Shown: positions 8,602 to 22,540 of the stretch, piece by piece | Layout: each line of letters starts with the position of its first letter | How positions within the stretch are numbered: position 1 is the first letter of the stretch | Assembly: GCA_036489315.1 (NCBI GenBank) | Contig: DASXFZ010000023.1 | Span: 1-64,000, forward strand | DNA: 64,000 nucleotides | Source: Candidatus Cybelea sp. | Lineage (GTDB): Bacteria > Vulcanimicrobiota > Vulcanimicrobiia > Vulcanimicrobiales > Vulcanimicrobiaceae | Direction: 5' to 3' | Notes under the pieces: generated by a model | What the model was told of the DNA's origin: nothing | Databases searched by the model: none | The model's input: only the letters and a program-made list of their open reading frames with translations | Program-made: the position numbers and the translations under genes

Positions 8602-8996
8602 AAATAGAGCTTGGCGTGGTCGGACACTTCGGACTCGCCGTGCGCGATCCGAAAGCGAGCGCGCGGTGGTGGCGGCGACTCTTCGATCTCGAGACGATCT
8701 TCGAAGGCGACGACTACGTGGGCCTATCGAACGAACACGTCACGATCGTCCTGCACGCGGGCGTGCCGCATCCGGCGACGCTCGGCCATATGTCGTTCCA
8801 TCTGCCGAGCATGGCGCGTTTGCGCGGGGCGCTCGAGCTTCTCAAACAGCATCACATCGACGTCGAAGACCCCGGCGACGAGATCGGGCCGGAGACGCCC
8901 GGCTCGCCGCACATGGGGTTGTGGTTTCACGATCCCGACGGCTATCGTTGGGAGCTTTCCGTTCAGTACGGCGGAGCGCTAGCCGGTCAGCGTTAG
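8598..8996 (+). CDS. VOC (glyoxalase/bleomycin-resistance) superfamily protein
   Basis: The 132-aa protein has two beta-alpha-beta-beta-beta modules. H10 (GHFGLAV), the mid-protein GHMSFHLPS and the C-terminal DPDGYRWELS are typical metal-ligand regions of VOC enzymes. The start overlaps the peptidase stop (ATGA), so translation is coupled. Its 3' end overlaps the convergent aldehyde dehydrogenase gene by 4 bp. The substrate cannot be told from sequence. Confidence 0.8.
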   Translation: MKIELGVVGHFGLAVRDPKASARWWRRLFDLETIFEGDDYVGLSNEHVTIVLHAGVPHPATLGHMSFHLPSMARLRGALELLKQHHIDVEDPGDEIGPETPGSPHMGLWFHDPDGYRWELSVQYGGALAGQR

Positions 8997-10648
8997 CCAG
9001 GCGATCGTGGCGAGCCGCAACGGCGACGGCTTGACTTCGAGCGCACAGAGCGCCGCTCCGATGCCGCCTGGTTGCGATGGGCGATAAACCAGGGCGGCCG
9101 TAGCGCGCGAATCGCCGGAAGGAAAGGCGCGCGCAGGACGGCCTTTTGGGTATTGGAGAGCAGCAGCGAGTTATGGACGACGCCTTGGCCGCTCGGGCTC
9201 GCCGTGCCGGTTTGGCCGCGGTAGGCGCCCCACGGAACGGCGGGCAGCAGAAAGCCGACGCCGCTCCAGATGTTGACTCCGAGGCACCCATACTGCAGTG
9301 ACGCCAGTGCCTCGTCGATCGCCCGGCGACTCTTTCGCTGCGTTTGCGGATCGACGATCAGGGTGGCGGCCAGATCCCCGCGCAGCCGCTGGTTGCAGAA
9401 GTCTACCGCGGCGCGAAGGTAACTCTCGGCGTCGCCGGCGTCGAGCGAGACGACGGCGAGGAGCGGCCCGAACGCTTCGCGCGAAAAGAGCGGCTCTCGC
9501 ATGTCGTTCGGATCGGCGGGGAGGATCGCGCGTGCGCTCCGTTCGTCTCCGGCGCCGCCGAACGTCACGGCTCCCGGGCGCCCGGCGGCGAGTGCAGCGC
9601 AACGCTCGCGCGAGGCGGGATAGTAGGCAATCCGGTCGGGCGCGGCCGCGAACGTGCGGCGCAGCTCGCCGATGAATGCTTCTCGCTGGCGCCAACGCGC
9701 GCAGAGCACGAGCACCTGCAGCGCGATGCAGTTGAAGCCGTTGTTGTGCAGCTTCGCTGAGGCGAGCTGTTCGGCGTGGAAACGCAGCGCGCGCTCGCTC
9801 CACCGTCCGGGGAGAACGATTACCGGGCTGACGTTGCCAAGCTCGCTCGTGATCGGCTTGCCGGCGGCGTTTTCAGCCGCGATGTCGCAATAGGTCGCCT
9901 CGCTACCGGTAACGTGGATCGCGTCCACCAGCGGATGCGTGCAGAGGTAGCGCCCGACGGCGGCGTCGCCGTACGCGAAACGAAGGTACCCGTCGTCGAC
10001 GAGGGGTGCGAGCGCGCCCTCGAAGATCGAAGCGAGGTAGCCGAGCAACGGGTGCACCTTCAGCACGCAGACCGCGCCCTCGGCGACCAGCTTATACAGC
10101 ACGTCGAGCAGCCCAATCGAACTGATATTTCCCGCGCCGAGGACCGCTACGACCGCCGGCGCCGCACGGCGTTGCCGGTACCAGCCGGCGACGCTTTCGC
10201 CAAGATTCTCCGCGGTGACGCCCGGCCGCATCCAGACTTCGGCGCGCAGGCCGGGCTGAAGCAGCCGCTCACGCAGCCCCGCCGGATAGACCTCGACGGC
10301 GATCTGGGACCCTCCCCGCCCGACCGGTCGTGACTTGAGGTTCGACCGTTCTCGCGCTTCGATTCGGCGAAGGGTGGCGATGAAGGCGCTCAGCGCGTTG
10401 AGCACCGCCCAGGGACCAGTGATGGCCTCCTCCCCGGCGAGGGAGGTGCCCGCCGTACCCTTTGCCTCGGCAGCGAGATCCGCCCAGCGCGGCGCAGCCG
10501 CGGCGGTCGACGCTCGGCACGCGGTCAGCAGCTCGATCTTGCGGGCGATCGGGAGCGACGTCGAGCGCCTCGCTCCCCCGCGGAGTTCGAGCAGATCGCG
10601 GTCGAGCCGGCCGGTTATCCCTCGGCCTGGTCTACGCTGACCATCCAC
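8993..10648 (-). CDS. Aldehyde dehydrogenase superfamily protein
   Basis: It oxidises an aldehyde with NAD(P). The catalytic cysteine lies in NNGFNCIALQ and the general-base glutamate in TSELGNVSPVIV. The C-terminal NIWSGVGFLLPAVPWGAY segment is typical of a longer ALDH subgroup. From the GTG at 10648 the protein has 551 aa and its 5' end overlaps the upstream VOC gene by 34 nt. No good ribosome binding site supports this start. No better canonical start precedes the conserved RLDRDLLELR helix, so the 5' end is uncertain. Confidence 0.8.
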   Translation of the reverse strand: MDGQRRPGRGITGRLDRDLLELRGGARRSTSLPIARKIELLTACRASTAAAAPRWADLAAEAKGTAGTSLAGEEAITGPWAVLNALSAFIATLRRIEARERSNLKSRPVGRGGSQIAVEVYPAGLRERLLQPGLRAEVWMRPGVTAENLGESVAGWYRQRRAAPAVVAVLGAGNISSIGLLDVLYKLVAEGAVCVLKVHPLLGYLASIFEGALAPLVDDGYLRFAYGDAAVGRYLCTHPLVDAIHVTGSEATYCDIAAENAAGKPITSELGNVSPVIVLPGRWSERALRFHAEQLASAKLHNNGFNCIALQVLVLCARWRQREAFIGELRRTFAAAPDRIAYYPASRERCAALAAGRPGAVTFGGAGDERSARAILPADPNDMREPLFSREAFGPLLAVVSLDAGDAESYLRAAVDFCNQRLRGDLAATLIVDPQTQRKSRRAIDEALASLQYGCLGVNIWSGVGFLLPAVPWGAYRGQTGTASPSGQGVVHNSLLLSNTQKAVLRAPFLPAIRALRPPWFIAHRNQAASERRSVRSKSSRRRCGSPRSPG

Positions 10649-11031
10649 TGCACGCCGAACCGGTCGGTAAGCGCTCCGAACTTCCCGCCCCAAAACGCTT
10701 GCTCCAAGGGCATGTCGACCTTGCCCGCCTCCGCCAGCGCGTTAAAGACGCGTTCGCCCTCGGCGTCGTCGGTGGTCGAGAGGCAGAGAGCGACGTCGTC
10801 CTCGCCGTCGGGTCCGGGTCCGGGCCGGCCGTCCGAGGCCATGAACCTCACGCCGTCGGCCTGGAACTTCGCGTGCATGACTTTGTCTTTGTAACTCGCG
10901 TCGACTTGCGATTCCATCGGCGATCCCGCGAAACGATTGAGGCCGGAAATTTCGCCGCGCAGGCACTCTTTGTAGAAGTTCAGCGCCTCCTCGCAACGGC
11001 CATGAAAAAAGAGATAGGGTTCGAGCTGCAT
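10615..11031 (-). CDS. PhnB-like VOC family protein
   Basis: The 138-aa protein is of the PhnB/3-demethylubiquinone-like type: QLEPYLFFHGRCEEALNFY at the start, a central FMASDGRPG turn and a C-terminal FGVQWMV. The ATG at 11031 has AAGGAG upstream and gives the family N-terminus. The frame opens 35 codons earlier, but those residues do not resemble the family. Its end overlaps the probable start of the aldehyde dehydrogenase gene. Function is unknown; many homologues have no proven activity. Confidence 0.82.
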   Translation of the reverse strand: MQLEPYLFFHGRCEEALNFYKECLRGEISGLNRFAGSPMESQVDASYKDKVMHAKFQADGVRFMASDGRPGPGPDGEDDVALCLSTTDDAEGERVFNALAEAGKVDMPLEQAFWGGKFGALTDRFGVQWMVSVDQAEG

Positions 11032-11159: not shown

Positions 11160-14100
11160 TTGAACCGGTTCGTCCACCTTCACGTCCATTCGGAATACTC
11201 GCTTCTTGACGGCGCTTGCCGCATCGACCGCCTCTGCCGGAGAGCCGCGGAGGAAGGAGCGACCGCCGTCGCCCTGACCGATCACGGCGTAATGTACGGC
11301 GCGATGGAGTTTTACTACACCGCGAGAGAAATGGGGCTTACTCCTATTCTCGGGTGTGAGGCCTACCTCGCGCCGCGCGGGCGCCTCGACCGCAGCGCCA
11401 GAGAAGAGGCGCACGTTACGCTGCTGGCCGCCGATCTGGTCGGCTACCGCAATCTGGTCGCGCTCGTATCCAAAGGCTTCCTCGAGGGCTACTACTACAA
11501 GCCGCGCATCGACCTCGACTTGCTCGCACAGCACAACGACGGCTTGATCGTTCTTTCCGGCTGCATGTCGGGGCTCGTCGCCGCTCCGATGCTGCGCGGC
11601 GACGAGGCGACGGCGCGACAGAACGCCAAGACGTACCGCGAAATTTTCGGCGACCGGTTCTACATCGAAGTGATGCGCCACGGGATGCCCGAGCAGGACG
11701 CGATCAACGAAGGCCTCGTCCGCCTGGCGCGCGAGCTCGAGATTCCAATCGTCGCGACCAATGATTCGCACTACCTCGAACAAAAAGACGCGGCGGCGCA
11801 CGACGTGCTGCTGTGCATCGGCACGGGCAAGACCGTCTCCGATACGAACCGGATGAGGTTCTACTCCGACCAGTTCTATCTCAAGAGCGGCGCCGAGATG
11901 TACGAGCTGTGGAGCGACTATCCGGAGGCCTGCGAGAATACGGCGCGCATCGCCGATCGGGTCGACATCCGTATTCCCGAAAAGATCTTCCACCTGCCGC
12001 AGTATCCCGTACCGGGCGAAGCGGACGACGCGGCGCGAAGCGATGCGGAATACCTGCGCGAGCTTTGCGAGCTCGGGCTGTGCGAACGGTACGGCGACGA
12101 CCGCGTCTCCAGCGACCCGAGCCTGCGTACCCGCCTGGACTACGAGCTCGACGTGATCACGAAGATGGGCTTCTCTTCGTACTTCTTGATCGTCTGGGAT
12201 TTCATCAAATACGCACGCGACTGCGGGATTCCGGTGGGGCCGGGGCGCGGCTCGGCGGTCGGCTCGCTCGTCGCGTACTGCCTAAAGATTACCGACCTCG
12301 ATCCGCTGCGCTTCAATCTGCTCTTCGAGCGCTTTCTCAACCCCGAGCGAATCTCGATGCCGGATATCGACACGGATTTCTGCGTCGAGCGGCGCGATGA
12401 AGTGATCGCGTACGTTACCGAAAAATACGGCAAGGATCGCGTCGCGCAGATCGTGACCTTCGGCACGATGGCCGCGCGGGCGGCCGTGCGAGACGCGGGC
12501 CGGGCGCTCGCCGTGCCGCTGCCCGACGTCGACCGCATCGCGAAGCTGATTCCGGCCGGCCCCGGCGGCTTGACGATCTCCAAGGCGATCGAGCAGATCC
12601 CCGAGCTGCGCTCGATCTACGCGATGCAGCCGCAGATACGCAAGCTGCTCGACACGGCCAAAGAGATCGAAGGGCTGGCGCGCAACGCGGGGACGCACGC
12701 CGCCGGCGTCGTCATTTCGGCCGGTCCGCTCACGGAGTACACGCCGCTCGTGCGCTTCGGCGACGGCGGCGTCAACACGCAGTACGACATGAACTGGATC
12801 GAGCGCATCGGCCTGCTGAAAATGGATTTTCTCGGCCTTCGCAACCTTACCGTCATGGAGAACGCGGTGCGCGAGATCCGGCGCACGATCGATGCCGAGT
12901 TCGACCTCGCAACGATCCCGCTCGACGACGCCAAGACCTTCGAAATGCTCGGGCGCGGCGAGACGATGGGCGTCTTTCAGCTCGAGTCGGAGGGGATGAA
13001 GCGAGTCTGCGCCGAGCTTCAGCCATCACGCTTCGAGGACATCGTCGCGCTCGTCGCGCTCTACCGTCCCGGCCCGATGGACTGGATTCCCCAGTACATC
13101 GCCAACAAACACGGCCGGTCGAAGCCGCACTACCTGCATCCCAAGCTCGAGCCGATACTGGCCGAGACCTACGGCACCGCCGTCTACCAGGAGCAGGCGA
13201 TGCAGCTGGCGCGCGAGATCGCCGGCTTCACGATGAGCGAAGCCGACGAACTCCGTAAGGTCATCGGGAAAAAGCAAAAGGAGAAGATCCCGCTCTATCA
13301 AGAGAAGTTCGTAACCGGCGCGATGCGAACCTCGGGAATCGATCGCGCGCTCGCGGAGAAAATCTTCCATTTCGTCGAGCCCTTCGCGGGCTACGGCTTC
13401 AACAAGTCGCACGCCGCCGCGTATGCCTGGATCGCTTTGCAGACCGCCTATCTGAAGGCCAATCACCCGCTGCAGTATCTCGCGGCGCTGATGACCTCGG
13501 TGAAGGACAAGACCGACAAGCTCGTCGAGTACATCGACGAAGCGAAGAAGATCGGCATCGAGGTGCTGCCGCCGGATGTCAACGAATCGCTGGTCGACTT
13601 TGCCGTCGTCGGTGCTTCGATACGCTTTGGTTTGGCCGCGATCAAAGGCGTCGGCGAGGCGGCGGTGCGGGCGATCATCGAGGCCCGGGATCGGGACGGC
13701 CGGTTCGGCGATCTCTTCGACCTTGCGTCGCGCGTCGATGCCAGGCACGTCAACCGACGCGTTTTGGAGGCGCTGATCAAGTGCGGTGCCCTCGACTCCA
13801 CGAGCGGAAACCGCGCGCAGAAACTGGCGGCGCTCGACACGGCTCTCGAGCTCGCCGCGCGGACGACACGCGACGCAGAACTTGGACAAGCCTCGCTCTT
13901 CGGAAGCGGCGCCGCCGATGGGCCCGTCCTCGCGCCGAAACTCCCCAGCGTCGTCGCGCCGACGACCCGCGAGATGCTGACGTGGGAGCGCGAAACGCTC
14001 GGCATCTTCGTCTCGGGCCACCCGCTCGCCGAGATCGAGCCGGCATTGCGACGCGGCGGCGCGGTCCCGATGAAAGAGCTTCCCGATCTGCAAGACGACG

Positions 14101-14627
14101 CGCCGGTTACGATCGCGGGTGCGGTTACGTCGGTCCGCCGGACGCTGACGAAGTCGGGACAGCAGCTTTTGCTGGCACAGCTCGCCGATACGACGGGGTT
14201 CTGCGACGTGGTGCTCTTTTCGAAGATGTACGCAAGCTACGCGCAGCTGTTCGAAGATGACGCCGTCCTGATCGTGAAAGGCCGGCTGCGATTTCGCGAG
14301 CGCCCGGGGGGCGCACCGGGAGACGAACCGCGCGTCGAGCTCTCGGTGGCTGCCAACGAAGTCTCGAACTTTGTTCCACCGCCCGTTGCGCTGGTCAGGC
14401 CAGGCTCCCGCGGCTGGCACGTCGACGTAACGGACCGCGAGCAGATCGACCGGCTCGCGCTCCTGATCGACGAGTGGCCGGGAGAGGTTCCCGTCGTCCT
14501 GCACGTTGCGGGCCGTTCGCAGCGCGTTGCCCGCGCGATCGCCGGCGATGCGCGCGTGCGCGGCGAGCTCGAACGTATCTTCGCACCGCACGGAGTGCGC
14601 GAAGGCACGCTGGACGCGTACGGATGA
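11160..14627 (+). CDS. dnaE: DNA polymerase III alpha subunit
   Basis: This is the replicative polymerase (1155 aa, TTG start giving the typical NRFVHLHVHSEYS N-terminus). The order is PHP domain (residues 1-270), polymerase core with the catalytic PDIDTDF loop (about 400-406), beta-binding and helix-hairpin-helix region, and a C-terminal OB fold (about 975-1060). All nine PHP metal-site positions known from mycobacterial DnaE1 are kept: H8, H10, D17, H42, E67, H85, C135, D202 and H204. An active PHP proofreading exonuclease is therefore inferred. The stop overlaps the next ATG by 4 bp, so dnaE heads a coupled run to ftsQ. Confidence 0.97.
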   Translation: MNRFVHLHVHSEYSLLDGACRIDRLCRRAAEEGATAVALTDHGVMYGAMEFYYTAREMGLTPILGCEAYLAPRGRLDRSAREEAHVTLLAADLVGYRNLVALVSKGFLEGYYYKPRIDLDLLAQHNDGLIVLSGCMSGLVAAPMLRGDEATARQNAKTYREIFGDRFYIEVMRHGMPEQDAINEGLVRLARELEIPIVATNDSHYLEQKDAAAHDVLLCIGTGKTVSDTNRMRFYSDQFYLKSGAEMYELWSDYPEACENTARIADRVDIRIPEKIFHLPQYPVPGEADDAARSDAEYLRELCELGLCERYGDDRVSSDPSLRTRLDYELDVITKMGFSSYFLIVWDFIKYARDCGIPVGPGRGSAVGSLVAYCLKITDLDPLRFNLLFERFLNPERISMPDIDTDFCVERRDEVIAYVTEKYGKDRVAQIVTFGTMAARAAVRDAGRALAVPLPDVDRIAKLIPAGPGGLTISKAIEQIPELRSIYAMQPQIRKLLDTAKEIEGLARNAGTHAAGVVISAGPLTEYTPLVRFGDGGVNTQYDMNWIERIGLLKMDFLGLRNLTVMENAVREIRRTIDAEFDLATIPLDDAKTFEMLGRGETMGVFQLESEGMKRVCAELQPSRFEDIVALVALYRPGPMDWIPQYIANKHGRSKPHYLHPKLEPILAETYGTAVYQEQAMQLAREIAGFTMSEADELRKVIGKKQKEKIPLYQEKFVTGAMRTSGIDRALAEKIFHFVEPFAGYGFNKSHAAAYAWIALQTAYLKANHPLQYLAALMTSVKDKTDKLVEYIDEAKKIGIEVLPPDVNESLVDFAVVGASIRFGLAAIKGVGEAAVRAIIEARDRDGRFGDLFDLASRVDARHVNRRVLEALIKCGALDSTSGNRAQKLAALDTALELAARTTRDAELGQASLFGSGAADGPVLAPKLPSVVAPTTREMLTWERETLGIFVSGHPLAEIEPALRRGGAVPMKELPDLQDDAPVTIAGAVTSVRRTLTKSGQQLLLAQLADTTGFCDVVLFSKMYASYAQLFEDDAVLIVKGRLRFRERPGGAPGDEPRVELSVAANEVSNFVPPPVALVRPGSRGWHVDVTDREQIDRLALLIDEWPGEVPVVLHVAGRSQRVARAIAGDARVRGELERIFAPHGVREGTLDAYG

Positions 14628-15898
14628 GGGTCATCGCCGCCGGCGATCCGAGTTCGTTGACCGGCGTCGTCTTCACCGGCTGGAGCGCGCCCGAAGCGGT
14701 GCGCACCGAAGTCGCCGGTATTCTCGCTGCGGTCGAGGCGCGCGGCGACGCAGCCGTGATCGAGTACGCGCGCCGCTTCGACGACGCGCCGTTCGACACG
14801 TCGCTGCGCGTCGCGATTCCGATGCTCGACAACCTGCGGCCGCACGTACCGCGCGAGATCGCCGCGGCCCTCGATTTGGAACGGGAACGCCTGACGCGCT
14901 TTCATCAGCGTCAGCGCCTGCCCGATATCTCCTACGTCGAAGAAGACGGATCGCGCTATGCCGTAGCGCGCCGTCCTTTGAGATCCGTCGCGGTATACGC
15001 GGCGCGCTCGGGGGCATTGAGCTCGATCCTCATGGGTGCGGTGCCGGCGAAGATAGCGGGGGTGGCGCGGATCGCGGTCTTGTCGCCGCCCGGCGCAGAC
15101 GGCTTCGATGCCGCACTGCTCTTTGCGTGCGCTCTCTGCGGCGTCGACGAGCTCTACGCCGTCGGCGGCGCGCAGGCGATCGCCGCGGCCGCGTTCGGCA
15201 CGCACTCGCTGCGCGCGGTCGATAAGATCGTTGGCCGCGGCGGTACGTGGACGACCGAGGCGAAGCGCCAGATCTACGGGCGTTGCGGCATCGACGGCTT
15301 ATCCGGTCCGCCGGAAGCCCTGATCGTCGCCGACGAGGGAGCGAGCAGCGAATACGTCGTCGGAGAGCTGCTGGCAGCCGCGGAACGGCCCGGCGTCGCG
15401 CGAGCGGTCGTGATCTCGGAGTCGCGCTCGCTGCTCGAGGCCGTCGCTCAACTGATCGACACGCTCGACCTGGAATCCCTGGAGCGCAGCGAGGCCGTTC
15501 GCAAGGTAATCGCGACCAACGCCCGGCTCGTTGCCGTCGGGTCGCGAGACGAGCTTTTCAACCTGATCAACCGGTTTGCGCCGGCGTATCTCTGCCTGCA
15601 GGTGCGCGACGCGTGGTCGTACCTCGAACGGATTACGACGGCGGGCACGATTCTGATCGGTGACTCGACGCCGTTGGTCAGCGGGGAGTACCTGGCGGGG
15701 ACCAACGCTATCGCCCCGGCCGGGGGAACCGCCCGTTTCGCTTCTTGCCTCTCGCTGGCGGACTTCACCCGCAGCTTCAGCGCGGTTGAAAACAGCGCCG
15801 AGCGGCTCGCCGCGGATGCCGGCGTTTTGGCTGCACTCGCCGAGCGCGACGGTTTCCTGCACCACGCCCAAACCGCACGAATGCGCCAAGACCGATGA
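14624..15898 (+). CDS. Histidinol dehydrogenase family protein lacking catalytic residues
   Basis: The fold matches HisD along its whole 424-aa length: VGGAQAIAAAAFGT, SGPPEALIVAD, GTARFASCLSLADF. The residues that define HisD are changed. The catalytic Glu-His pair (E. coli E326/H327, usually PEHL) is A321-Y322 in APAYL. Zinc ligands Q259, H262 and D360 are A252, R255 and E355. The GPNHVLPT-type histidine is A362. Only the C-terminal histidine region (FLHHAQ) remains. No other his gene is nearby. It is coupled by 4-bp overlaps to dnaE and the HAD gene. Oxidation of histidinol is unlikely; its function is unknown. Confidence 0.8.
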   Translation: MRVIAAGDPSSLTGVVFTGWSAPEAVRTEVAGILAAVEARGDAAVIEYARRFDDAPFDTSLRVAIPMLDNLRPHVPREIAAALDLERERLTRFHQRQRLPDISYVEEDGSRYAVARRPLRSVAVYAARSGALSSILMGAVPAKIAGVARIAVLSPPGADGFDAALLFACALCGVDELYAVGGAQAIAAAAFGTHSLRAVDKIVGRGGTWTTEAKRQIYGRCGIDGLSGPPEALIVADEGASSEYVVGELLAAAERPGVARAVVISESRSLLEAVAQLIDTLDLESLERSEAVRKVIATNARLVAVGSRDELFNLINRFAPAYLCLQVRDAWSYLERITTAGTILIGDSTPLVSGEYLAGTNAIAPAGGTARFASCLSLADFTRSFSAVENSAERLAADAGVLAALAERDGFLHHAQTARMRQDR

Positions 15899-16692
15899 TT
15901 CGGCTGGTGGCCTTCGACGTTGACGGAACGCTCGTCGGCCGAAACCTTTCGATCTCGAGCGCCGTCCGGGCAGCGATCGAACGAATGAAGGCTGCCGGCG
16001 TCTCGGGGTGTCTGGTGACCGGCCGGATGTACCGTGCAACGCTGCCCTTCGCGCGCGAGCTTGGCTTCAATGCGCCGATAATCTGCTATCAAGGCGCGGC
16101 GATCATCGACCCGGAGAGCGACGCGGTGCTGGATCATCGAGCCCTGGAAAACGACGTCGTGCGCGAGCTTGCATCGCTGGCCGAGCGGGACCGCATGCAC
16201 TTGCAGCTCTATCGGAACGACGAGTATTACTGCGAGTCGCGCAATCGCTTTTCGGAACTCTACGCGTCGCTGGCCCAGAGCGAATCCATCGTCGTACCTT
16301 CCCTGCGCGAGGCGTTTGCCGATAGTCCCGCGACGAAGGGAGTCGTCGTGGCCGACGCGCCGGAGGCCGCGGCCTACGCCGTAAAGCTGCGCGACACGCT
16401 CGGAGGACGCGCGTACGTGACGCGCAGTTTACCGGAGTTCGTCGAGATACTCGATCCGCAGGTCGACAAAGGGGCTGCGCTGCGTTTCGTTGCCGAGCGC
16501 CTTGGCGTACCGCTCGAGCAGACCGCAGCGATCGGCGACTCCTGGAACGACGCGCCGCTGTTGCGCGTTGCCGGGCTCGGGATTGCGATGGGCTCGTCGC
16601 CGCCGGAGCTGCGCGAAACCGCCGACGCCATCGTCGCCGATCTCGAACACGACGGAGTGGCCGAGGCGATCGAACGGTTCGTGCTCGCGTGA
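15895..16692 (+). CDS. Cof-type HAD family phosphatase
   Basis: The 265-aa protein has the HAD motifs: I (DVDGTL, nucleophile D8), II (LVTGR), III (the DKGAAL lysine) and IV (GDSWNDAPLL). A C2 cap lies between residues about 85 and 185. This Cof/YwpJ subgroup dephosphorylates sugar phosphates or flavin and pyridoxal phosphates; the substrate cannot be named. It overlaps the HisD-like gene and ftsQ by 4 bp on each side. Confidence 0.88.
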   Translation: MIRLVAFDVDGTLVGRNLSISSAVRAAIERMKAAGVSGCLVTGRMYRATLPFARELGFNAPIICYQGAAIIDPESDAVLDHRALENDVVRELASLAERDRMHLQLYRNDEYYCESRNRFSELYASLAQSESIVVPSLREAFADSPATKGVVVADAPEAAAYAVKLRDTLGGRAYVTRSLPEFVEILDPQVDKGAALRFVAERLGVPLEQTAAIGDSWNDAPLLRVAGLGIAMGSSPPELRETADAIVADLEHDGVAEAIERFVLA

Positions 16693-17435
16693 GCTACGCG
16701 AGGACGCGCCGGACAAAACGCTCGCCGGCGTCGCGAGTGCGCCCGTTTTGGATCCTTTTTACCCTCGCGGGGATTGTGGTCGCCGGCGCCCTCGGGTTCT
16801 TCGCAACCTGGCCCGGCTTCGATCTCGCGCACGTCGCCGTGTCGGGAAACCGCAAGGTAACGACCAGCGAGATTCTGCAAGCCGCACGGATCTCGCCCAA
16901 CCGGAGCATCTGGCTCGAGAACACCGGGGCCATCGCCGCGCGCATCGGGCGAATTCCGTACGTTGAGTCGGTGTCGATCCACCGGCTCCCGCCGGCCACG
17001 CTCAAGATCGTCGTGCGCGAGCGCGTGCCGGTCGCCGTACTGCAAGTGGACGACGATACCGCGGTCGTCGACCGCTCGCTTCGCGTGTTAGAAGAACCGG
17101 CCAGCACGCAAACCCTTCCGGTTTTGTCGCTTGGCACAACGCTTACGTTGACACCCGGCGAGTTCGTTACATCGAAGGACGCGCTGGAGCTGCGAGACGC
17201 CTACGAAACCTTATCGGGCAAAGGCACGAAGGTGACGGCGCTCTCGCTGGATCGTTACGGGGACTTGGCGGCGGAGCTTCCGGGGGGCATGCGCCTGTTG
17301 CTGGGCGCGCCCGAAAATCTAGAGAAAAAGATTGCGCTTGCCGGCGCGATCATCTCGCAAACCGGCGGCACGCAGCGAAAAATCTCGGCGCTCGACCTTC
17401 GCGCGCCGAACACGCCGGTGATCGTCTATCGCTAG
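16689..17435 (+). CDS. ftsQ: Cell division protein FtsQ/DivIB
   Basis: FtsQ links cytoplasmic and periplasmic parts of the divisome. The 248-aa protein has a basic cytoplasmic tail, one membrane helix (about residues 20-42), and a POTRA domain (about 45-115) with VSGNRKVTTSEILQAARI and the IPYVESVSIHRLPPATLKIVVRERVP segment typical of FtsQ. A beta domain follows. The GTG start overlaps the HAD stop. It precedes ftsA and ftsZ but is separated from them by a small gene on the opposite strand. Confidence 0.92.
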   Translation: MSYARTRRTKRSPASRVRPFWILFTLAGIVVAGALGFFATWPGFDLAHVAVSGNRKVTTSEILQAARISPNRSIWLENTGAIAARIGRIPYVESVSIHRLPPATLKIVVRERVPVAVLQVDDDTAVVDRSLRVLEEPASTQTLPVLSLGTTLTLTPGEFVTSKDALELRDAYETLSGKGTKVTALSLDRYGDLAAELPGGMRLLLGAPENLEKKIALAGAIISQTGGTQRKISALDLRAPNTPVIVYR

Positions 17436-18008: not shown

Positions 18009-19226
18009 GTGACGGAGCGCATGAAGCACGAGACCCTTTGCGGGCTCGATATCGGTACGACCAAGACCTGTATGGTCGTCGCGACGGCCGGCCCGACGGG
18101 CCTCGAAATCGTCGGCTTCGGTGAGGCTCCGACCCTGGGAATGCGCAAAGGGGTCGTCGTCGATTTGGACGAGACAATCAAGTCGATCGAGGCCGCGACG
18201 GAGAGGGCCGAACGGATGGCCGGGGTGCACTTCAACGAAACGCTCGTCGGCATCACCGGCGAGCACATTCGCAGCACGAATAACCGTGCCGTCGTCGCGG
18301 TCTCCAGCGAGGATCGCGAGGTAACCTCGGGGGACGTGCGGCGCGTCATCGACGCGAGCAAGATCATCAATCTTCCCAGCGACCGGCAGATCATCCACGC
18401 GCTGCCCCGGTATTTTACCGTGGACGGCCAGGAGGGCGTCAGCGACCCGATCGGGATGTCCGGCGGGCGCCTCGAGGTAGACACGCACATCGTAACCGGC
18501 AGCACCAGCTTCATCACCAACGTGCTGAAGTGCGTCGAGCGAGCCGGGCTTGAAACCAGCGGCGTCGTTTTCGAGCCCCTGGCGAGTTCGGCGGCGACGC
18601 TGCTCGCCGAAGAGAAGCAGGTTGGAGTCGTCATGCTCGACATCGGCGGCGGCACGACCGACATCGCCGTCTATTCGCTGGGCAGCGCGATTTATACGGC
18701 GACGATTCCGGTCGGCGGAAACATCCTGACCAGCGATATCTCCTTGGGCTTGAAGACGACGCTGTCGGAGGCCGAAGACGTGAAGAAACGCCATGGCGCC
18801 AGCGAGCGAGGCGAGCCCTTCTCCGTGCGCACCCTGGACGGTCGGGCTAAAAGAGAGCACTCGACCGCCGAGCTGCGCCAGATCGTCGTGCCGCGAGTTT
18901 TGGAGACGCTGCGCATGGCCCGCCAGAAGATCGTCGAAAACGTGCCGCGCGACCTCGTGCTCGGAGAGGTCGTGCTGACGGGCGGCGGCGCGTTGCTGCC
19001 CGGCATCGAACCGATCGCCGAGGAAGTCTTCAATCTGCCGATTCGGGTGGGAACGGCGAACTCGATCGGCGGATTGACCGATGCGATGGCCTCGCCGCAG
19101 TATGCGACGGCCCTCGGACTCGTCGTCTTCGGCGCAAATGGCCACGGCGAAGATGCGGTCCACGGAAGGCGGCGTAACGGCATCGGAGGGCGAATCCAGC
19201 GCTGGCTCGCAGATCTATGGACCTAG
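18009..19226 (+). CDS. ftsA: Cell division protein FtsA
   Basis: This actin-like ATPase tethers FtsZ to the membrane. The 405-aa protein has the phosphate-1 motif CGLDIGTTKT, the SHS2 (1C) domain around VGITGEHI, phosphate-2 LDIGGGTTDIAVY and the adenosine motif LTGGGALLPGI. The C-terminus (GGRIQRWLADLW) is a typical membrane-targeting amphipathic helix. GTG at 18009 and ATG at 18021 are both possible starts and neither has an ideal ribosome binding site. It overlaps ftsZ by 10 nt. Confidence 0.95.
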   Translation: MTERMKHETLCGLDIGTTKTCMVVATAGPTGLEIVGFGEAPTLGMRKGVVVDLDETIKSIEAATERAERMAGVHFNETLVGITGEHIRSTNNRAVVAVSSEDREVTSGDVRRVIDASKIINLPSDRQIIHALPRYFTVDGQEGVSDPIGMSGGRLEVDTHIVTGSTSFITNVLKCVERAGLETSGVVFEPLASSAATLLAEEKQVGVVMLDIGGGTTDIAVYSLGSAIYTATIPVGGNILTSDISLGLKTTLSEAEDVKKRHGASERGEPFSVRTLDGRAKREHSTAELRQIVVPRVLETLRMARQKIVENVPRDLVLGEVVLTGGGALLPGIEPIAEEVFNLPIRVGTANSIGGLTDAMASPQYATALGLVVFGANGHGEDAVHGRRRNGIGGRIQRWLADLWT

Positions 19227-20359
19227 AGAGACCCGATCCCTCGCTCCCTAACCTTTTTTCGACGGAGGAACCGCAAGAGATGACCGACGTACGACGTTCC
19301 GTTCAAGAGCCGGTGCATGCAGCGACGATCAAGGTGATCGGAATCGGCGGCGGCGGTTGCAATGCCGTCAACCGCATGGTGGCGGCCGGCCTGGCCGGCG
19401 TCGACTTTTTTGCGGTGAACTCCGACGTGCAGGCGCTGCGCGGCGCGCTGACCGAGAACCGCGTTCACATCGGCGGAAGCCAGACGCGAGGCCTTGGTGC
19501 GGGAGCGAATCCCACGCTCGGGCGCGAGGCGGCGGAGACTTCGCGCGAAGACCTAGCGATGATCCTCGACGGTGCCGATCTCGTCTTTCTGACGGCCGGC
19601 ATGGGCGGCGGCACCGGTACCGGCGCGGCGCCCGTGATCGCCGAGATCGCGCGCGAGTCCGGCGCGTTGACGATCGCCGTGGTTACGAAGCCCTTCGCTT
19701 TCGAAGGGAAGAAGCGCATGCAGGTCGCCGAGAACGGCATCGCCGAGCTGGAGAGCAAGGTCGACACGCTGATCACGATTCCTAACGAGCGCATCCTGCA
19801 AATCATCGAGAAGAAGACGCCGCTGAACGAGGCGTTTTCGTTCGCCGACGACGTCTTGCGCCAGGGCATTGCCGGGATCAGCGACCTGATCACGCAGCCC
19901 GGTTTGATCAATCTCGATTTCGCCGATGTGAAGGCGATCATGAGCGACGCCGGCTCCGCGATGATGGGCATCGGCGAAGGCAGCGGCGAGCATCGTGCCG
20001 CCGACGCCGCCCAAAAAGCGATTGCATCGCCGTTGCTCGAGACGACCGTCGAGGGCGCGCAGGGCGTCATCTTCAACATCACGGGCGGTCCCGACATGGC
20101 GATGTACGAGGTCAACGAGGCCGCGGAAATGATCAGCCGCGCCGTCGACCCCGACGCCGCGATCATCTTCGGTGCATCGGTCGATCCGGCGATGACTGGG
20201 CGCGTTCGCGTCACCGTACTGGCCGCGGGATTCGGCGCTCGGCGCGGCTACCGCGGCGCCCAGAGCGGCTACGCCTTCGAGCCGAATAAACTGGAGGCGG
20301 TCTCGCCGGTAACGATGGACGACATCGACGTCCCGGCGTTCCTGCGCTATCGCGGCTAG
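19217..20359 (+). CDS. ftsZ: Cell division protein FtsZ
   Basis: The tubulin-like GTPase forms the Z ring. The 380-aa protein has the GTP-binding loop GIGGGGCNAVNRM, the tubulin signature GGGTGTGAAP, the T7-loop region NLDFADVK, and a C-terminal partner peptide DDIDVPAFLRYRG that binds FtsA. The ATG at 19217 lies inside ftsA. A second ATG at 19280 with GGAGG upstream is an alternative that would drop 21 poorly conserved residues. The linker between core and tail is very short. Confidence 0.97.
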   Translation: MDLERPDPSLPNLFSTEEPQEMTDVRRSVQEPVHAATIKVIGIGGGGCNAVNRMVAAGLAGVDFFAVNSDVQALRGALTENRVHIGGSQTRGLGAGANPTLGREAAETSREDLAMILDGADLVFLTAGMGGGTGTGAAPVIAEIARESGALTIAVVTKPFAFEGKKRMQVAENGIAELESKVDTLITIPNERILQIIEKKTPLNEAFSFADDVLRQGIAGISDLITQPGLINLDFADVKAIMSDAGSAMMGIGEGSGEHRAADAAQKAIASPLLETTVEGAQGVIFNITGGPDMAMYEVNEAAEMISRAVDPDAAIIFGASVDPAMTGRVRVTVLAAGFGARRGYRGAQSGYAFEPNKLEAVSPVTMDDIDVPAFLRYRG

Positions 20360-20377: not shown

Positions 20378-22540
20378 GTGGCCTATAGTGCGCGCGTTTT
20401 GCTGGACTCCGTCAGCCCGGTCGGCGTCCGGCTGACGACGCTCGAGGTAACGTTCCCGCGCTTCGTTCTCGCCGAGTTTAATACGCACCGTAGCTTTTGC
20501 CTCGACGCGGAGACGAAGCTCTACTTCGACTTACCTTCGAAGCGGAAGGGCAAGACGCGGCGGTTCGCGATGACGATCGCGGAGCTTTTTGAGAAGTGGC
20601 ACCACGGTGCCACGCCGCGAGCAAATCGTGGAAAAGTAAAAAGCGCCTCGAAAATCGATCCGGATCGCGCCTATACGGCCGAAGAGTTAGCGCACCTCGC
20701 TGGATACGCCGGCTACTCGGGGATCGATCTGCTGACCCGCCGCGTGGGAATACCGCGAATCCTCCGCCACGGAGAGCGATATCGCGTACGCGGGGCCGAC
20801 TTCATCGCCTGGCATAAGGCCGCTGGCCTCAATCGTCAACCGCTGCGGTGGCGCGTTGCCGCGATGAAGCTGCGTTCCTGCAACGAGGAGAGTGGTGAGA
20901 TCTATCATACGTCGATTCGCGACGTCGTATTCTCCGGCCACAAGCCGGTCTTCCGAGTTACACTGACAAACGGCCAGAAGATCCTTTCGACCATGGACCA
21001 CCAATTTCTGACCCGCTCGGGCTGGCAGCGCTTGGAAGATGCCGTCGGGCTGCGGTTGAGTCCAGGCAACGTAGCGAGTTGGAAAAATACTCCTGAGTTT
21101 GCAGTGAATGGGATTGCCGCATACAGGGATGCGCAATGGCTGGCCGGCCTTCGCGACGCAGGATTGTCGGCGGTGCAGATCGCGGCATACGCGGGCGTTA
21201 CGCTGGATCAGATCAAGTACCAGTTTCGCAAGCATGGGTTACGGAGCACGAATCCAGAGGCAGTATGGCATCTGTCGCACGTCGAGGAGCCCTGGAATAA
21301 GGGCCGGCGTTACTCGAACCTTACGACGCGTGGCCGTCCCAGCAAGGCGCGCGTCCGGAGAGGGTCCGAGTCCCATCTTTGGCGTGGGGGCATCACACCA
21401 CAGCGCAAGTTGATTGGTGCGTGGACGGTCCAGCACGCCTTCTCTACGCACCGTGCCAATGGCTTCAAATGCGTTTTGTGCTCTTCTACCCGAGAGCTGC
21501 ACGCGCATTACGTCGATCCTGTAGCGCATAATGCAGAGCGCGCAGTCGACCCCACGAACCTGACGAGCCTCTGCAAGGCGTGCCACCGAGACTTGCATCG
21601 CCGGAACCTCGAGCTGTTATTGCTGGATCACGTTCAGAAAGGTGAATCGTTCGCATCGTTTTGGGACACCGTGGGCGGCCTTTCTCTACGAAAGCCCTGG
21701 GCTGCGCGGCCAAAATGGGCGATGGTCAGGCACTTCGTTGCGCTGGCTTGCGTTGAATACGTCGGCGTGCGCGCCACGTACGACCTCGAAGTCGAAGGGC
21801 CGTATCACAACTTCATTGCAGACGGATTTGTCGTTCATAATTCACGAAATTCGGCGAGTTCTCGTGCCGTGCCGACGGCAAAATTGATCGAACGCGTTGA
21901 GAGCGAGCCGGCCGTCCCGCTCGAATGGGGACGCAACAAAGCCGGGATGTCCGCCAGTGAGGTGCTCCGGGGCGACGAAGCAGAGCAGGCGCGGCGCGTT
22001 TGGCTTTCGGCTCGAGATGCCGCGGTAGTACATGCCCGCGCACTGCTCGACTTGCACGTGCACAAGCAGGAGCTGAATCGGCTGCTCGAGCCGTTCTTGT
22101 GGCACACGGTGATCGTTACGGCCACGGAATGGGAAAACTTCTTCGAACTACGTTGTGCGCCCAACGCTCAGCCGGAGATCCGTGCGGCGGCGCTGGCGAT
22201 GCGCGCGGCGATCGCAGCCAGCACGCCGACGCTGCTCGAATATGAGGCTTGGCACACGCCCTTGCTTCAACACGACGAGTACGAGCTCGATATTGAAACG
22301 CGATTGCGGATCTCCGCCGCTCGATGTGCGCGCGTCTCGTATCTTACGCACGAAGGCAGGCGTGAGATCGAAAAGGACCTTGACCTCTACGAGCGACTCA
22401 AGGTAGACCGGCACTTGAGTCCGTTCGAGCACGTCGCGACGCCCGCGCCCGATGACGCCTTCTATGCAAACTTTCGCGGCTGGGTTCAGATGCGCCGGGA
22501 GATCGAAGCAGAGGTCCCCTCTCCGGCTGGACCCGGCTGA
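20378..22540 (+). CDS. thyX: FAD-dependent thymidylate synthase, permuted motif order, interrupted by an intein
   Basis: ThyX makes dTMP from dUMP with FAD and methylene-tetrahydrofolate. The 720-aa precursor consists of N-extein 1-40, intein 41-488 and C-extein 489-720. The spliced enzyme has 272 aa. Joining the exteins restores the signature THRSFSRNSASSR, comparable to RHRxxSxNxxSxR, with the first Arg replaced by Thr. After it comes the WENFFELR region (585-592), and last ARVSYL (about 651-656) and SPFEH (681-685). Ordinary ThyX begins with RVSF...PFEH, so the order here is circularly permuted. The GTG start is 18 nt after ftsZ. The 3' end overlaps a convergent gene by 55 nt. Confidence 0.88.
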   Translation: MAYSARVLLDSVSPVGVRLTTLEVTFPRFVLAEFNTHRSFCLDAETKLYFDLPSKRKGKTRRFAMTIAELFEKWHHGATPRANRGKVKSASKIDPDRAYTAEELAHLAGYAGYSGIDLLTRRVGIPRILRHGERYRVRGADFIAWHKAAGLNRQPLRWRVAAMKLRSCNEESGEIYHTSIRDVVFSGHKPVFRVTLTNGQKILSTMDHQFLTRSGWQRLEDAVGLRLSPGNVASWKNTPEFAVNGIAAYRDAQWLAGLRDAGLSAVQIAAYAGVTLDQIKYQFRKHGLRSTNPEAVWHLSHVEEPWNKGRRYSNLTTRGRPSKARVRRGSESHLWRGGITPQRKLIGAWTVQHAFSTHRANGFKCVLCSSTRELHAHYVDPVAHNAERAVDPTNLTSLCKACHRDLHRRNLELLLLDHVQKGESFASFWDTVGGLSLRKPWAARPKWAMVRHFVALACVEYVGVRATYDLEVEGPYHNFIADGFVVHNSRNSASSRAVPTAKLIERVESEPAVPLEWGRNKAGMSASEVLRGDEAEQARRVWLSARDAAVVHARALLDLHVHKQELNRLLEPFLWHTVIVTATEWENFFELRCAPNAQPEIRAAALAMRAAIAASTPTLLEYEAWHTPLLQHDEYELDIETRLRISAARCARVSYLTHEGRREIEKDLDLYERLKVDRHLSPFEHVATPAPDDAFYANFRGWVQMRREIEAEVPSPAGPG
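20498..21841 (+). mobile_element. Intein with HNH homing endonuclease inside thyX
   Basis: The 448-residue insert begins with Cys (CLDAETKLYF, block A) and ends GFVVHN followed by Ser, the block G pattern of a class 1 intein. Block B is in ILSTMDHQFL (T-x-x-H) and block F in the TYDLEVEGPYHNF segment. An HNH nuclease motif lies at precursor residues 365-403 (C365, C368, H375, H377, C399, C402, H403). Two helix-turn-helix-like stretches (about 98-150 and 250-290) may bind DNA. The insertion point is between F40 and S489, inside the ThyX signature. Confidence 0.92.

Follow-up and report, generated by a model that had tools for sequence, protein, structure and literature searches.

Why is a homologue of histidinol dehydrogenase (HisD), the last enzyme of histidine synthesis, kept between a DNA polymerase gene and the genes for cell division, when its catalytic residues and the histidine pathway have both been lost? 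The question is raised by a gene, here referred to as hisD-like, that lies in the window (the whole stretch of 64,000 nucleotides that was analysed). The source genome comes from a group of uncultured soil bacteria within Candidatus Eremiobacterota and is a 3.09 Mb draft, 95% complete. An earlier note on this DNA had described the gene product as a probable HisD pseudoenzyme that selection probably maintains for another function. This description is supported by orthologues, by searches of the whole genome and by a dN/dS of about 0.10 after inactivation, and we consider it likely that the protein has been retained for a non-catalytic role, probably in binding or as a scaffold.

The hisD-like gene and its product

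The reading frame opens with an ATG and specifies 424 amino acids that match HisD over their whole length. Profile searches returned E=2e-106 for PF00815 and 347 bits for TIGR00069 (hisD), the latter above the cut-off of 243.8. The AlphaFold2 model of the protein (mean pLDDT 88) was matched by Foldseek to Brucella HisD with a TM of 0.92 and to E. coli HisD with a TM of 0.89. The frame is thus intact and the fold appears to be whole, as the earlier note had it. With the E. coli (1KAE) and Brucella (4G09) enzymes the protein shares fold, length and core residues, at 32-33% identity, and the locus is orthologous to that of HisD in relatives.

The similarity does not extend to the active site. Alignment to E. 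coli HisD (1k75) placed A252, R255, A321, Y322, E355 and A362 at the positions of Q259, H262, E326, H327, D360 and H367, respectively, exactly the replacements that had been claimed. Unlike HisD, the protein is therefore devoid of the Glu-His pair and of three of the four zinc ligands; of these, H419 alone is kept (as H414). Y125 is kept as well. In addition, the PGG loop is altered, GPGN reads GRGG, and P230 and D409 replace S237 and E414. The same residues are missing in 10/10 copies of the window's genus, which excludes chance as the cause of the losses. The catalytic-pair position reads AY in nine of these copies and GY in the tenth. As judged from the alignment and the predicted structure, the protein has lost its catalytic motif and kept its fold, in the manner of a pseudoenzyme.

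Since the profile score exceeds the hisD cut-off, one could suppose that the protein is still a histidinol dehydrogenase, salvaging external histidinol. With neither the catalytic Glu-His pair nor three of the zinc ligands in place, this is extremely improbable. In HpsN, a sulfopropanediol 3-dehydrogenase and active zinc enzyme that oxidises dihydroxypropanesulfonate, single Ala replacements of the equivalent Glu and His lower kcat/KM 580-fold and 240-fold, and removal of the metal lowers activity 250,000-fold (PMC11382572). The hisD profile cut-off is passed by a protein that is in all likelihood unable to do the reaction, a warning to annotation pipelines, and pathway reconstructions of these uncultured bacteria can be led astray.

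Like the hisD-like product, HpsN is a HisD-fold protein outside histidine synthesis, an example of such enzymes having taken new substrates before (PMC11382572). With H414 and Y125 kept, the pocket of the hisD-like protein might also have been rebuilt for another substrate or metal, yielding a dehydrogenase of a new kind. However, HpsN itself retains the Glu-His pair and the zinc site: its Glu318, His319 and Asp352 (PMC11382572) correspond to A321-Y322 and E355. Moreover, pocket positions of the hisD-like protein differ among close relatives (A/Q/V at 252, R/L/V/I at 255, P/A/V/T at 230, A/R/H/S/N at 362); therefore no new site is being conserved, and we find the idea of a new enzyme highly doubtful.

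The gene had been placed in a translationally coupled run, dnaE-hisD-like-HAD-ftsQ. Indeed, stop and start codons overlap at all three junctions: ATGA at 14624 (dnaE/hisD-like) and at 15895 (hisD-like/HAD), and GTGA at 16689 (HAD/ftsQ). The dnaE/hisD-like overlap is ATGA or GTGA in 7/7 genus copies inspected. Conservation at fourfold-degenerate codons revealed no overlapping regulatory element within hisD-like that stands out against the neighbouring genes. The positions of the features are collected in Table 1.

Table 1. Coordinates of the genes and sites discussed (window positions unless stated otherwise; residue numbers of the hisD-like protein unless marked E. coli).
Feature	Position	Strand	Basis or remark
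dnaE, DNA polymerase III alpha	11160..14627	+	profile matches; stop overlaps hisD-like start
hisD-like (HisD pseudoenzyme, 424 aa)	14624..15898	+	PF00815/TIGR00069, residue loss, dN/dS, AlphaFold2/Foldseek
A252 and R255, replacing zinc ligands Q259 and H262 (E. coli)	15377..15388	+	alignment
Strand 260-265 and helix 268-280 (residues 261-285), candidate interaction surface	15404..15478	+	raised constraint
A321-Y322 codons, replacing catalytic Glu-His (E. coli E326-H327)	15584..15589	+	alignment
E355 and A362, replacing zinc ligand D360 and conserved H367 (E. coli)	15686..15709	+	alignment
HAD-IIB (Cof-type) hydrolase	15895..16692	+	profile matches; start overlaps hisD-like stop
ftsQ	16689..17435	+	POTRA_1 and FtsQ_DivIB_C
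ftsA	18009..19226	+	profile matches
ftsZ	19217..20359	+	by sequence; query for context and tree
Lone hisA	genome contig 18, 16103-16783 (L104 6098-6814)		between citrate synthase and alanine racemase

Some features of the surroundings deserve mention. Upstream of dnaE, on the opposite strand, the window encodes a divergent aldehyde-dehydrogenase-family protein (Aldedh, 50 bits; 8993-10693, minus strand). At 20378-22540 lies a ThyX (Thy1) gene split by an intein that contains an HNH endonuclease domain, the insertion point falling inside the NTHR...SRNSASSRA region. An insert of about 1.1 kb (L045 7405-8504), possibly an intein, sits in the dnaE gene of genome G096 and is missing from its relatives.

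Ancestry of the locus and loss of the histidine pathway

The earlier note had seen no his genes. Extended to the whole 95% complete genome, the statement stood for hisG, hisB, hisI and a second hisD, none of which was found. PF00815 has one match in the whole genome, the hisD-like gene, which is therefore the sole HisD homologue, with no second, intact copy. The statement did not stand for hisA: a lone gene on another contig, with its catalytic Asp residues intact, accounts for the single strong PF00977 match. The second strong match expected from hisF is missing in the genome. Every histidine-less relative tested has retained this hisA next to citrate synthase, including those that have gained a second one. 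It is unlikely to stand in for trpF, as a separate trpF is present in most of these genomes.

Relatives that have the pathway show the gene order dnaE-hisZ-hisG-hisD-HAD-ftsQ-ftsA-ftsZ. In genome G082 the genes overlap or abut from dnaE through hisD into HAD, with hisG directly upstream of hisD; the gene between dnaE and hisG is HisRS-like, as HisZ is. Residues Q259, H262, E326, H327, D360 and H419 are kept in all 35 full-length dnaE-linked HisD copies inspected, which come from genomes of other genera of the family and order that keep the pathway. Three arrangements are found within the family: intact hisZ-hisG-hisD, dnaE-hisD-like-HAD, and dnaE-HAD without hisD.

Dead HisD copies occur in two sets of genomes. 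The first dead clade comprises 10/10 gene-bearing genomes of the window's genus and 2/2 of genus g13; in these 12 genomes hisZ-hisG is gone. The second comprises seven genomes from genera g2, g24 and g31, with the same pattern at the locus. All twelve genomes that lack both hisG and hisB yet have a HisD homologue fall in the dead set. Altogether, these comparisons show that the ancestor carried hisZ-hisG-hisD between dnaE and HAD-ftsQ, and that the pathway and hisZ-hisG were later lost in this lineage. Intact orthologues in the same place, named in the earlier note as a finding that would speak against a pseudoenzyme, do occur, but only in other genera with hisZ-hisG alongside and the rest of the pathway. 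They therefore mark the origin of the hisD-like gene and do not refute the pseudoenzyme idea.

Six of the seven second-clade genomes also hold a second his cluster with an intact HisD; G034 has hisB and an intact HisD. The hisG genes in those seven genomes are mostly very divergent. Probably the second clusters were regained through gene transfer, once the original pathway had been lost. The genomes recorded as having such a cluster, in which HisD is intact and HisG mostly divergent, are G033, G034, G052, G088, G096-G098 and G107 (L041, L042, L049, L052, L057-L060).

Within the window's genus, the hisD-like gene is absent and dnaE is joined directly to HAD in five of the 15 checkable genomes (G042, G043, G044, G047 and G050). 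On the tree these absences require four or more separate losses; the gene is therefore useful and dispensable.

Selection on the inactivated copies

Because the dead pair is common to the whole genus and to g13, dN/dS estimated across the genus spans the time after inactivation. Under a codon model, the dead copies in the window's genus had a value of 0.104, and intact HisD from two other genera had values of 0.104 and 0.119. The neighbouring genes gave 0.088 (HAD), 0.062 (dnaE) and 0.162 (ftsQ). A model in which dN/dS was set to 1 was worse by 644 log-likelihood units (kappa held at 1.8). Synonymous saturation is excluded as the cause of the low values by unsaturated close pairs (dS about 0.3-1.0), for which dN/dS was 0.06-0.15 in hisD-like and 0.08-0.13 in HAD. 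The gene has thus been under purifying selection after inactivation, as a pseudoenzyme should be.

These values bear on the possibility that the gene is an operon relic, a translated bridge whose protein is idle and in which a stop or frameshift would uncouple HAD and ftsQ from dnaE. Stop-start overlaps on both sides of the gene, frames that are open throughout, and the loss of the pathway all agree with such a relic. But selection acting on the frame only predicts dN/dS near 1, against the 0.06-0.15 seen. Furthermore, relatives have deleted the gene cleanly and kept the order dnaE-HAD-ftsQ; therefore the bridge is not needed. On these grounds we regard an idle bridge as improbable.

Constraint on the second clade is looser, with dN/dS of 0.138 in g2/g24 and 0.187 in g31; the dead HisD of g31 has motif deletions, including that of the H367 loop. 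Amino-acid change relative to DnaE amounts to 2.16 in the window's genus and 3.78 in the second clade, as opposed to 1.5-1.66 in intact HisD (seven groups), so that some relaxation must have occurred in dead copies. This faster evolution, strongest in the second clade, along with the deletions in g31 and the repeated losses in the genus, would be expected if the gene were functionless, decaying and simply not yet deleted. Slow decay is nonetheless very improbable, given a dN/dS of 0.10 across the whole genus after inactivation and the finding that none of 19 dead copies, several of them partial, has a genuine frameshift or internal stop. Apparent frameshifts in G037 and G034 are both NN scaffold gaps rather than signs of decay; therefore no copy is demonstrably broken.

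The distribution of changes along the protein was also compared. Thirty-seven positions that are invariant in intact HisD have changed in the dead clade, and many of them make up the active site: the PGG loop, GPGN, S237, Q259, H262, E326, H327, D360, N366, H367 and E414 (E. coli numbers). A parsimony count over 19 active-site positions assigned to them 50/726 substitutions in the dead clade versus 3/866 in comparable intact copies (p=2e-14). Residues 261-285, a segment picked out by scanning about 40 sequence windows, changed less often in the dead clade than they did in the comparable intact set (odds ratio 0.27, p=1.6e-8). The same held for the second clade (odds ratio 0.33, p=0.0013), and the effect was weaker when the remaining intact genera were used for comparison (odds ratio 0.48, p=0.0024). 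A similar segment is already present in g6, the sister genus with intact HisD. The sequence SESRPLLEAVAQLIDTLD and its variants (SESR..L..aAQLLdT) are retained even in g31 copies without the H367 loop. In our reading, the protein still needs this segment, either as part of its surface or for its structure.

A probable non-catalytic role and its antecedents

The presence of a dead HisD, still under selection, between a DNA polymerase and cell-division genes suggests a second, non-enzymatic job. In this lineage the pathway and hisZ-hisG were lost, and the HisD that remained was stripped of the catalytic pair, the zinc site and the conserved loops for cofactor and substrate. The gene has stayed open, translation-coupled and under purifying selection as strong as that on the working enzyme, with constraint leaving the active site and rising in the strand and helix of residues 261-285. 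The protein presumably still folds and probably dimerises like HisD. Stop-start coupling would tie its synthesis, at a low level, to that of DnaE and of the division proteins, and it may bind a putative partner (a protein or other ligand) through the face bearing helix 268-280.

A precedent exists within the ancestral operon. HisZ, which resembles HisRS, is itself a pseudoenzyme, retained in histidine synthesis as a subunit without catalytic activity, and a HisRS-like gene lay beside hisG in that operon. The hisD-like product is likewise a dead enzyme that has been kept; HisZ serves the pathway, whereas the hisD-like gene has outlasted it. Bacterial pseudoenzymes in which the catalytic motif is lost and fold and selection are retained, as in the present case, have been reviewed (PMC5106787, PMC10211241). 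Pseudoenzymes are thus already known as a kind; for HisD, a classic enzyme and drug target, neither a pseudoenzyme nor any inactive, selected form was found in the literature searched. Literature searches for pseudoenzyme forms of HisD, for moonlighting by HisD and for auxotrophy in Eremiobacterota returned nothing on the hisD-like protein. The occurrence of working, dead-but-constrained and cleanly deleted copies at one locus in close relatives amounts to a natural separation of chemistry from any other role. The locus allows testing whether a biosynthetic enzyme can become a structural or regulatory factor linked to replication and division.

The dead copies may go back to one inactivation or to two. 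In a species tree built from DnaE, FtsA, FtsZ and HAD with FastTree, dead copies fall in two clades, one of them sister to the intact genus g6, and joining all of them in one clade is rejected by these housekeeping genes (log-likelihood difference 63.9, AU p=0.0023). Conceivably, Eremiobacterota HisD already had a second, non-catalytic role tied to the replication/division operon before the histidine pathway was lost, and two lineages, each on its own, gave up the chemistry but retained the role; we think this rather unlikely. If true, the hisD-like product would be linked to replication or division, and in relatives the functional HisD could likewise be moonlighting. HisD itself favours one dead clade; in its test the species order had an AU p of 0.0034, which became 0.05 without the released sites and 0.044 when genus g31 was also left out. 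Convergent relaxation, long branches or transfer of a dead gene could cause this single-clade signal.
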